Below are positions 56,461 through 60,226 of a DNA stretch of 64,000 nt, in pieces (position 1 is the first letter of the stretch; the number at the start of each line of letters is the position of its first letter). The notes under the pieces are model-generated. The model saw nothing but the letters and a program-made list of their open reading frames with translations. It searched no databases and had not been told where the DNA came from. A program made the position numbers and the translations under genes. Source of the stretch: Sulfitobacter marinus (GTDB taxonomy: Bacteria; Pseudomonadota; Alphaproteobacteria; Rhodobacterales; Rhodobacteraceae); NCBI RefSeq assembly GCF_900116285.1, contig NZ_FPAJ01000002.1, positions 558,001 to 622,000 of the forward strand, in the 5' to 3' direction.

Positions 56461-57735
56461 ATGCTGCGCCGTCTACACCCTGACCAACCGACAAGCTTTG
56501 CCTTTACCCCTGACAATCAGGTATGGGCCGAAGCGCAGATCACCAAATACCCCGAAGGCCGTCAGGCATCGGCAATCATTCCGCTGCTCTGGCGCGCGCA
56601 AGAGCAAGAGGGCTGGCTAAGCCGTCCAGCGATTGAACATGTGTCCGAAATGTTGGGGCTGGCCTATATCCGCGGCCTCGAAGTCGCGACATTTTATTTC
56701 ATGTTTCAGTTGCAGCCCGTGGGCGAGGTGGCGCATTTCCAGATTTGTGGCACAACATCCTGCATGATCTGTGGTGCCGAAGACTTGATCAAGGTCTGCA
56801 AAGACAAGATCGCAGCGCAGCCGCATCAAATCAGTGCGGATGGCAAGTTTTCGTGGGAAGAAGTCGAATGTCTGGGCGCGTGTTCAAACGCGCCAATGGC
56901 CCAAATCGGCAAGGACTATTACGAAGACCTGACCACGGATGGCTTTGCTGCAATGATCGATGAGATGGCAGAGGGCAAAGTTCCGGTGCCGGGTCCGCAG
57001 AACGGCCGCTACGCGTCCGAGCCTTTGTCCGGTTTGAGCAGCCTTCAGGATCACGACAGCGGCAAAACCCAATATAACGCAAGCGTGCAGTTGGCCGTTG
57101 ATATTGGCGATACGATCAAGCGGATTGACGGGACCGAAGTTCCATTTACCGCCCCTTGGCAGGGTAAATCTGCCGATAAGAAAACATCAAAAACCGCCGC
57201 GCGTGAGGATCAAATGCCTCCTAGTGGCCCCGATGGTGCCCAAGGTGGACGCACGCCGGCAGAAGACGCCGCCCCACGTGACGTGGGCGACAGCTCGGAT
57301 CAAAAATCAGAAGCCCCGGGTGAAGCCAAGGGCGATAAGGCCATCGCCAAACCCGCCCAAGGTAGCGTCGCACCCGAACCCAAAACACCTGCGCGCAAGC
57401 CCGGCATTGCCGTATCAGCGGAAAAGAATGCTGCTGCGACGGGCACCAAACCTGCAACTCTGGACGCCCCGCGCGGCGGTGCTGCGGATAACCTCAAGCT
57501 GATCAAGGGCGTTGGTCCCAAGCTTGAAAAGCTGGTGAATGACCTTGGTTTCTTCCACTTTGATCAGGTTGCCAGCTGGACAGCGGATGAGCTGGCTTGG
57601 GTCGATCAGCAACTTAGCGGGTTCAAGGGCCGGGCCAGCCGTGACGGTTGGATTGACCAAGCGAAAAAGCTGGCTGCAGGCGAGGAAACAGAATTCTCGT
57701 CCCGCGCCAAAAAAGATGATATCTATAAAGGATAA
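56461..57735 (+). CDS. nuoE: NADH-quinone oxidoreductase subunit E with C-terminal helix-hairpin-helix-like extension
   Basis: A 424-residue protein; standard NuoE is about 160-240. Residues 1-170 are the thioredoxin-like subunit with [2Fe-2S] ligands C96 and C101 (ICGTTSC) and C137 and C141 (CLGAC). Residues 220-342 are a disordered Lys/Pro/Ala/Glu-rich linker. Residues 343-424 form a separate module with [26 protein letters not shown] and [10 protein letters not shown], of the helix-hairpin-helix/H3TH type found in DNA-binding proteins. The same module ends the next protein. NuoE is part of the NADH-oxidising arm; the role of the extension is unknown. Confidence 0.95.
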
Positions 57736-57767
57736 TAAATCATCTTAAATGGTATGAAGGGACGGAC

Positions 57768-58610
57768 ATGACAAGTTTAACGGAAAAAGAACAGTGTAGA
57801 CGTGGTTGTACGCGGTGGGGGGCTGGTATCGGCCTTGTTGCCGCTTTGTTGTTTTGGTTGGTTTTCGGCTGGGGCTTCTTGGTGTCGTTGATACTGGGGA
57901 TCGTTGTTGGTGTGGTCGCATATTTCGTGCTTGTCAGCATGTGGTGTAGCAAGATTGTTGATACGCCTGCTCAAGCTGCGGCACCTGTGTCTGCAGCCCC
58001 CCCATCGGGGTCGGATGTAACGGCGGCGGCTGATGTCGGCGGTGCTGCGACCGAAGCAACGGCCGGTACGTCCGCTGCGGCTGCCACAACAGAAAAGGCA
58101 GCATTTTCCGGCGTTCAACCCAGCACACCCCTGAAAGGCCAAGAAGAACTGGCCGCGCGCAAGGGCAGCTATAAGTACGAGGCCCCGAAAGCCGAGAAAG
58201 CCGCCCCCAAAAAAGCGGCGGCAAAAAAGGCACCTGCTAAAAAGGCTGCGCCCGCCAAGAAAGCGCCCGCTAAAAAGGCGACCGCTAAGAAAACGGCACC
58301 TGCCGCGGTGGCGGATATCCCTGCGGCTGCAGTTGAAAGCAAGCCCAAAACCCTCAAGAAGGCGCGGGCAAGCGGTGCGGATGACCTGAAACTGATCAGC
58401 GGTGTTGGACCGAAGCTGGAGCAGACCTTGAACGAGCTTGGCTTTTACCACTTTGATCAGATCGCCAAGTGGGGCCCGGAAGAAATCACTTGGGTGGATG
58501 CGCGGTTGCGTTTCAAAGGTCGCATTCAGCGCGACGACTGGATGGCGCAGGCGGCAACTTTGGCTGCTGGCGGTGAGACCGAATTCTCTGCCCGCAAAAA
58601 GAAAACCTAA
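57768..58610 (+). CDS. membrane-anchored Lys/Ala-rich protein with C-terminal HhH-like module
   Basis: A 280-residue protein of unknown function. Two membrane helices lie at about 19-38 and 40-58, followed by an Ala-rich linker. Residues 142-176 are histone H1-like KKAxAKKAPAKK repeats, and residues 205-275 repeat the NuoE C-terminal module (LKLISGVGPKLEQTLNELGF, FKGRIQRDDW); about 45 of 76 aligned residues are identical by eye. The architecture suggests a membrane protein whose cytoplasmic tail could bind nucleic acid or an acidic partner. It starts 33 bp after nuoE in the same operon. Confidence 0.85.
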   Translation: MTSLTEKEQCRRGCTRWGAGIGLVAALLFWLVFGWGFLVSLILGIVVGVVAYFVLVSMWCSKIVDTPAQAAAPVSAAPPSGSDVTAAADVGGAATEATAGTSAAAATTEKAAFSGVQPSTPLKGQEELAARKGSYKYEAPKAEKAAPKKAAAKKAPAKKAAPAKKAPAKKATAKKTAPAAVADIPAAAVESKPKTLKKARASGADDLKLISGVGPKLEQTLNELGFYHFDQIAKWGPEEITWVDARLRFKGRIQRDDWMAQAATLAAGGETEFSARKKKT

Positions 58611-58632: not shown

Positions 58633-58860
58633 ATGACCGAAGAAGAAAACATCGCACTTGCCCGCAAGGGTCGGATGGTGGCTTTGGTCATTGCAGGCAC
58701 CATGTTGCTTTGGATCGCTGTGCAATGGATTGCGCCATATTTCGGTTTGCCCGGACGCTATGCATTGTTGTTTGATTTCGCGGCCTTGGCGGCGTTGATC
58801 TGGGCGATGGTGAATGTTTACCAAATGCGCAAGGCCCGCATGGCCAGCGGCGACGGTTGA
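58633..58860 (+). CDS. DUF5337 family small membrane protein
   Basis: A 75-residue protein with two hydrophobic helices (VALVIAGTMLLWIAVQWIA and YALLFDFAALAALIWAMVNVY) between a charged N-terminus (MTEEENIALARKGR) and a basic C-terminus. It fits the DUF5337 proteins found in rhodobacteral nuo loci. Function unknown; an accessory or assembly role for complex I is plausible from its place just before nuoF. It starts 22 bp after the preceding stop. Confidence 0.75.
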   Translation: MTEEENIALARKGRMVALVIAGTMLLWIAVQWIAPYFGLPGRYALLFDFAALAALIWAMVNVYQMRKARMASGDG

Positions 58861-58930: not shown

Positions 58931-60226
58931 ATGCTCCAGGATCAAGACCGCATCTTTACCAATATTTACGGTATGCACGACCGGACGCTTAAGGGCGCGC
59001 AGGCGCGTGGCCATTGGGATGGCACGGCGAATATCCTGAAGAATGGCCGCGACTGGATCATTGATCAGATGAAGGCGTCAGGCCTGCGCGGTCGCGGTGG
59101 TGCGGGCTTCCCGACGGGACTGAAATGGTCCTTTATGCCCAAGGAAAGCGACGGGCGCCCCAGCTATCTGGTGGTGAATGCCGACGAATCCGAACCGGGC
59201 ACCTGTAAAGACCGCGAAATCATGCGCCACGATCCGCACACGCTGATCGAAGGCTGCCTGATCGCAAGCTTCGCCATGCAGGCCAACGCCTGTTATATCT
59301 ATATTCGCGGTGAATATATCCGCGAGCGCGAAGCACTTCAGGCCGCGATTGACGAGGCCTATGATGCTGGTCTGGTGGGCAAGAACGCCTGCAAATCCGG
59401 GTATGATTTCGACATTTATCTGCACCACGGTGCGGGGGCCTATATCTGCGGCGAAGAAACCGCATTGCTGGAAAGCCTTGAGGGTAAAAAAGGCATGCCG
59501 CGCATGAAGCCGCCATTCCCTGCGGGGGCTGGCCTTTATGGTTGTCCGACCACGGTGAACAACGTGGAATCGATTGCCGTTGTGCCAACCATCCTGCGCC
59601 GCGGGCCCGAGTGGTTCTCGAGCTTTGGTCGCCCAAACAATGCCGGCACCAAGCTGTTTGCGATTTCCGGCCACGTCAACAACCCCTGCGTTGTCGAAGA
59701 GGCGATGAGCATCACCTTTGAGGAACTGATTGAAAAGCATTGCGGTGGCATTCGTGGCGGCTGGGATAACCTCAAGGCTGTGATCCCGGGTGGCTCCTCC
59801 GTTCCGATGATCCCCGGCGCACAGATGCGCGACGCGATTATGGATTTCGATTACCTGCGCGAGCAGCGGTCGGGGCTGGGCACGGCTGCGGTTATCGTCA
59901 TGGATAACTCGACTGACGTGATCAAGGCCATCTGGCGTTTGGCCAAATTCTACAAGCACGAAAGCTGTGGCCAATGCACGCCTTGCCGCGAAGGCACCGG
60001 CTGGATGATGCGGGTGATGGACCGTCTGGTTTCTGGCGATGCCGAACCGGCAGAGATCGATATGCTATTGGACGTCACTAAGCAGGTTGAAGGCCACACG
60101 ATCTGTGCCCTTGGCGATGCGGCGGCCTGGCCAATTCAGGGTCTGATCCGTCACTTCCGGGATGAAATCGAAGATCGCATCAAACATAAACGCACTGGCC
60201 GTGTCAGTGCCGTTGCTGCGGAGTAA
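58931..60226 (+). CDS. nuoF: NADH-quinone oxidoreductase subunit F
   Basis: A 431-residue 51-kDa subunit, the NADH dehydrogenase proper. The NADH and FMN site is [20 protein letters not shown]; the FMN loop has [18 protein letters not shown]; and the N3 [4Fe-4S] ligands are in [12 protein letters not shown] plus a later Cys ([13 protein letters not shown]). It takes electrons from NADH, forms the N module with NuoE and NuoG, and lies on the cytoplasmic side. GGGAAGC precedes the ATG. The next gene begins 5 bp after its stop. Confidence 0.97.

Follow-up and report, generated by a model that had tools for sequence, protein, structure and literature searches.

The nuo operon of Sulfitobacter marinus carries, between nuoE and nuoF, an additional gene whose product ends in the same way as NuoE itself. 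This raises the questions of what the additional protein is and of what a C-terminal module shared by a complex I subunit and its neighbour might do. They were addressed from the window, by which we mean the whole stretch of 64,000 nucleotides that was analysed (contig NZ_FPAJ01000002.1, positions 558,001 to 622,000), and from surveys of related genomes.

The gene downstream of nuoE encodes a protein-O orthologue

The gene order in the window is nuoA to nuoD (names assigned by eye), nuoE, the gene under study, a DUF5337 gene and nuoF, and the region resembles an ordinary nuo operon (Table 1). NuoE reached 592.7 bits against the NCBIfam model of extended NuoE, PRK12373, passing the equivalog cut-off of 514, and is of the extended type that this model already covers. 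The Rfam scan of the window gave no match at the gathering score. Between positions 57600 and 58960, the promoter scan returned no promoter-like site and the terminator scan returned 9 terminator-like sites, several of them within the repeat-rich coding stretch.

Table 1. Features of the nuoE to nuoF region, in window coordinates
Feature	Position	Strand	Basis
nuoE, extended form, 424 aa	56461..57735	+	NCBIfam PRK12373; Pfam 2Fe-2S_thioredx at 24-169
HhH-like module of NuoE	57487..57720	+	60% identity to the protein-O module; second row of alignment A2
Protein-O orthologue, 280 aa	57768..58610	+	Module matches 8yy9_O and 9wqv_a; hairpin profile matches both
Predicted N-terminal two-helix membrane hairpin of protein-O, with Cys10 and Cys60	57768..57947	+	Profile A1; model; Cys pair
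Ala/Pro/Lys-rich linker of protein-O, net charge +14 in the window strain	57951..58373	+	Charge varies among 62 relatives
HhH-like module of protein-O	58374..58607	+	AlphaFold2 model, pLDDT 93.2; BLASTP; alignment A2; fold matches
DUF5337 protein, 75 aa, neighbour between protein-O and nuoF	58633..58860	+	Pfam PF17272, 2.3e-31
nuoF, operon context	58931..60226	+	Pfam Complex1_51K

When compared with the PDB, the C-terminal module of the gene product matched 8yy9_O (2.4e-27) and 9wqv_a (2e-22). Regarding the N-terminal hairpin, a search with the single sequence found it in 7 of 61 family genomes at E up to 0.01 and was too insensitive, so the hairpin search was moved to a profile of 58 sequences with the window sequence as its first row (profile A1). 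This profile matched 8yy9_O (8.8e-10), 9lts_A, named Protein LRC (9e-9), and 9wqv_a (0.0055), the remaining 9 of the 12 PDB rows having E-values of at least 0.087. Entry 8yy9 is the RC-LH1 complex of Dinoroseobacter shibae, of which protein-O is one subunit (PMC12079452). Protein-O was described in 2025 in that report, which points out that its C-terminus resembles NuoE and calls its function unknown; in the structure the hairpin lies between the LH1 ring and subunit L, a Cys10-Cys59 disulfide is on the cytoplasmic side and the C-terminal domain is unseen in the map, and the gene is flanked by those of the complex I subunits E and F (PMC12079452). The window protein has the same architecture as this D. 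shibae protein, a Cys pair at the same places (Cys10 and Cys60) and a gene in the same place, between nuoE and nuoF, and differs from it in its length (280 versus 239 residues), in its Lys-rich linker and in that no reaction-centre genes were found in its genome. By sequence comparison, the identification of the gene after nuoE as an orthologue of protein-O is well supported; the preliminary description had missed this family membership.

The two membrane helices attributed earlier to this protein were recovered with modest confidence at residues 3-32 and 37-59 of a weak model of the hairpin (pLDDT 71, pTM 0.36), and the profile finds the hairpin of RC-LH1 complexes in the PDB. In a coarse count over 67 hairpins, both Cys of the pair were present in 54 and both were absent from 13, with no half state; L067, which has lost the first Cys site, was counted as keeping the pair through a neighbouring Cys14. 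Entries 9wqv and 9lts each contain an RC L chain together with a protein-O family member. Chain a of 9wqv is named as a 41 kd complex I subunit; the entry is not among the NuoF matches listed at 1e-100 but is among the RC L chains, and since it holds such a chain we consider it another reaction-centre entry with a protein-O family member. In the RC-LH1 complex of Rhodobacter sphaeroides, protein-U (protein-Y) has a hairpin at a place similar to that of protein-O (PMC12079452). The hairpin profile did not match protein-U at E up to 10, and sequence homology between the two hairpins was rejected. To our knowledge, protein-U has no helix-hairpin-helix (HhH) tail.

No match to PF00124 (reaction centre L/M) was obtained in the window genome, which is 95% complete in 12 contigs. 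For this reason the window protein was filed as a protein-O orthologue and not as an RC-LH1 subunit; it is possible that a photosynthesis plasmid was missed by the assembly.

The linker of protein-O had been described as carrying histone H1-like KKAPAKKA repeats. These repeats are present in the window strain but do not hold as a trait of the family, as a KKA..KK motif was found in 9 of 62 relatives, whose linkers span 60-286 residues with net charges from -25 to +34 (0 or less in 30 relatives, +8 or more in 17). The H1-like look of the linker is a trait of the window strain and of a few others. A role of protein-O as a histone-H1-like DNA tether acting through the repeats would agree with the Lys-rich linker of the window strain, of net charge +14; given the scarcity of the motif and the spread of linker charge among the relatives, it is hardly credible.

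NuoE and protein-O end in a common module with a predicted HhH-like fold

The similarity of the NuoE C-terminus to that of the next protein, estimated by eye at about 60%, was confirmed by BLASTP, which aligned residues 329-418 of NuoE with 191-279 of protein-O at 54 of 90 identities (60%, E = 6e-33), far above chance. GVGPKLE, HFDQ and FKGR are common to both modules, and positions L5, G10, G23, Q29, G49, R50, R53 and W56 are invariant in the module alignment (A2). The mean net charge was +0.5 for 62 protein-O modules and -2.1 for 78 NuoE modules.

The AlphaFold2 model of the protein-O module has a pLDDT of 93.2. Among the folds compared with it by VIA-align, the N-terminal HhH domain of RadA/Rad51 ranked first (Z 7.3, 58 to 62 residues, 2.6-2.7 A) and NusA AR2 was tied close behind (Z 6.9, 61 residues, 2.3 A). 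It should be noted that these nearest folds are middling matches, with Z at most 7.3, that the top RadA and NusA rows are only 18-29% identical to the module and that all Foldseek E-values were at least 0.35. The Pfam HHH_5 cut-off of 27 bits was missed by protein-O (15.7 bits), no match being listed for NuoE, and a relative in L039 reached 28.5 bits. Based on the model and its nearest folds, the tail common to NuoE and protein-O is predicted to be an HhH-like domain, in agreement with the earlier proposal.

Both proteins also matched the C-terminal part of the NCBIfam model of the phasin PhaH (NF045508), NuoE at 1.4e-19 and protein-O at 2.1e-18, over stretches that include some linker. The matches concern this C-terminal part only, which is homologous to both modules; the N-terminal phasin part is unmatched, and the scores of 71.2 bits for NuoE and 67.3 bits for protein-O lie below the whole-protein cut-off of 250. 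According to a review, the N-terminus of Caulobacter PhaH binds PHB granules and its C-terminus binds DNA nonspecifically via an HhH domain (PMC13052382). Three loci have a third module-bearing ORF after protein-O (L039:8381-9358, L049:7777-8427 and L074:8043-8906, the last overlapping the end of protein-O in another frame); these were considered as PhaH candidates and rejected, their likeness being confined to the C-terminal part.

Two kinds of partner can be envisaged from these similarities. The module may be a protein-binding HhH of the NusA AR2 kind through which complex I, RC-LH1 and the other carriers recruit the same assembly or regulatory factor, with no nucleic acid involved. The aligned NusA AR2 (6ib8_C, 65 residues) was solved in complex with the protein SuhB, an analogy that counts against a nucleic-acid partner, and the modules are neutral to acidic. 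By contrast, the homologue PhaH binds DNA according to the review (PMC13052382), and the module is not known to have a partner. We consider this explanation possible, if rather doubtful. A module charge near zero or negative would be unusual for a DNA tether; the modules of L21 and S2 described below are likewise neutral or negative, so that charge does not decide.

Other proteins carry the same module

NuoE and protein-O also matched the NCBIfam models of L21 and S2. A third copy of the module in the window genome lies at the end of ribosomal protein L21 (L004:3010-3834, module at G000:C1:786633) and lacks the HFDQ signature. L21 with a C-terminal extension (PRK12278) and extended NuoE (PRK12373) thus have the same type of module behind a linker, on different carriers. 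At the level of the class, 25 module matches were found in 14 of 152 genomes of Alphaproteobacteria: 7 in L21, 1 in S2, 3 in NuoE, 2 in protein-O, 10 in nine other proteins with a membrane helix predicted from hydropathy, and 2 further matches, the carriers being named by Pfam for S2, by NCBIfam for the L21 of the window genome and by eye for the rest. The proteins with a module and a predicted membrane helix are in L145, L147, L148, L149, L150, L151, L154, L156 and L164, that of L149 carrying two modules. Judged from sequence, the NuoE and protein-O modules are one domain type that also ends PhaH, L21, S2 and diverse membrane-anchored proteins.

The two modules occur together and apart

The first survey covered the best 80 of 586 loci found with the NuoE core, which are close relatives (a Roseobacter sample). 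The set used for trees has 80 rows, made of 79 loci and the window; L086 was dropped; it is a nuoE region of Roseobacter type in a MAG named Hydrogenophaga, and the contig that carries it is probably misplaced. A full protein-O follows nuoE in 66 of these 80 rows, counting L057 and L087, whose hairpins escape the profile; it is absent from 11 rows and reduced to the hairpin in 3. The hairpin-only relatives (L024, L045 and L090) measure 117-141 residues and belong to genomes without a PF00124 match. DUF5337 look-alikes, recognized by eye, precede nuoF in many loci without protein-O.

The NuoE module was found without a full protein-O in 14 of the 80 rows (best 80 of 586), and the reverse, a module-bearing protein-O beside a NuoE without module, in G163, G191 and G205. 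Docking of NuoE on its neighbour, one of the roles put forward from the sequence, is not supported by these cases as the only role of the module. That each module also occurs without the other speaks against simple mutual binding and is better fitted by a shared third partner. Direct binding between the two modules, linking complex I to the membrane partner of protein-O, would agree with their common operon, their near-identical consensus and their correlated divergence; in view of the rows in which either module stands alone, it is very improbable.

This correlation was measured over 64 loci. Modules of NuoE and protein-O were slightly more alike within a genome than between genomes (identity 0.657 versus 0.643; 28 of 5000 permutations), and their divergences were correlated (partial Mantel r 0.27; 1 of 2000). 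The within-genome likeness could be due to old gene conversion. Recent gene conversion as a general cause was rejected; the longest DNA tracts common to both modules of one genome averaged 14.0 versus 12.4 bases (p 0.03). A recent conversion is likely in L058, whose two modules share an identical tract of 36 bases and 50 of 62 codons. In G250 (L143, L157), both modules have shifted jointly to one divergent type, identical at 56 of 64 residues yet at only 31 of those 56 codons, a pattern fitting selection for one partner and in this respect favourable to a protein-binding HhH. A division of the NuoE and protein-O modules into two clean clades was not retained, with 15 changes on the tree and one clade rejected at p-AU 0.025, weak evidence from a tree of 76 columns with few supported forks and long branches.

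Protein-O is neither limited to phototrophs nor required by them

In the first survey, PF00124 gave matches in 17 of 40 genomes and in another 16 of 40; many of these genomes are MAGs, and their completeness is not given, so that some absences may be false, and in L033 there is a single partial match at the end of a contig. Protein-O is present in each of the 33 phototrophs among the 80 rows (with its module in another frame in L061, and cut off by the locus boundary in L067), and the 14 rows where it is lost or shortened all belong to genomes in which PF00124 gave no match (Fisher p 0.0002; best 80 of 586). Together with the structural place of protein-O adjoining subunit L (PMC12079452), this distribution argues for a protein that is only an assembly or quinone-channel subunit of RC-LH1, the copies of non-phototrophs being relics of lost photosynthesis. 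However, independent pairs on the tree gave only 2 to 5 informative cases, which all point the same way (sign test p 0.06 to 0.5), and protein-O is present in 33 of the 47 rows without a PF00124 match (best 80 of 586).

The second survey comprised 149 genomes of the family, drawn evenly. The hairpin profile matched in 98 of them, PF00124 in 60, the module in 136, PufX over its cut-off in 34 and PufC in 24; only part of the 98 hairpin matches were checked for an adjoining nuoE, and the weakest had E-values near 1e-4. The hairpin was matched in 42 of the 60 phototrophs and in 56 of the 89 other genomes. Fourteen of the 18 phototrophs without a match were inspected, which excludes G022, G032, G204 and G227; 4 have a diverged protein-O and 10 have none, so that the protein is missing from 10 of 56 phototrophs of known state. 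Inspection of 6 of the 33 non-phototrophs without a match revealed one carrier, which raises the count to at least 57 of 89; the comparison of phototrophs with the others (Fisher p 0.024) leans towards phototrophs, since few of these non-phototrophs were inspected. Being present in non-phototrophs and missing from some phototrophs, protein-O is neither limited to phototrophy nor required for it in the family. A protein-O that replaces PufX or goes with PufC was also rejected, the hairpin being matched in 23 of the 34 genomes with PufX and in 18 of the 24 with PufC (one genome belongs to both sets).

Regarding constraint, the mean column identity was 65% in the module alignment, where both carriers are mixed, versus 41% in the hairpin alignment. 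A synonymous difference of 0.2 to 0.7 in both parts was required of the pairs, and in 530 of the 568 that remained omega was lower in the module than in the hairpin; these pairwise values are near saturation and the pairs are not independent. The median omega of the hairpin was 0.58 in 117 pairs of phototrophs and 0.61 in 149 pairs without reaction-centre genes, that is, about equal, and that of the module was 0.18 versus 0.24, slightly freer without reaction-centre genes. When the window was compared with L012, its nearest relative, omega was 0.14 in the hairpin and 0.06 in the module; neither genome has a PF00124 match. There is no sign of strong relaxation of protein-O where reaction-centre genes are missing, and it is well supported that the protein is under constraint in such genomes. 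The similar constraint with and without these genes, together with the presence of protein-O in non-phototrophs, makes it unlikely that photosynthesis is its only job; for the same reasons the copies of non-phototrophs are improbable as mere relics.

Discussion

Protein-O consists of a hairpin in the membrane, followed by a spacer and, at the C-terminus, an HhH-like module that, by the D. shibae structure, should face the cytoplasm. In the window strain, where no reaction-centre genes were found, the hairpin would need a different anchoring site in the membrane, most probably close to the respiratory chain, in whose operon it is encoded. Each carrier of the module may be tethered to one common partner, most likely nucleic acid in the form of nucleoid DNA and less likely a protein. 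Nucleic acid is placed slightly ahead because of the homology to PhaH; the neutral-to-acidic charge of the modules and their likeness to NusA AR2 weigh against it. The explanation that we tentatively prefer is that the module tethers each carrier to such a partner, perhaps the nucleoid DNA, with protein-O anchored near the respiratory chain. No experiment known to us assigns protein-O to a complex in a non-phototroph, and a full-text literature search, which covered few subscription papers, found no report of protein-O in non-phototrophs.

A broader and more speculative version of this tether, which we hold to be conceivable but unlikely, is that the mobile HhH module serves in alphaproteobacteria as a shared address tag, gathering complex I, the photosynthetic core, ribosomes, PHB granules and membrane-anchored proteins at one partner, such as the nucleoid or translating polysomes, and that protein-O is a tether of the respiratory membrane recruited by photosynthesis. 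If true, protein-O would not be photosynthetic by origin. Its constraint in genomes where no reaction-centre genes were found shifts the question of its role from photosynthesis towards the respiratory membrane, and opens a simple test, namely whether complex I, RC-LH1, ribosomes and storage granules may have a tether in common.
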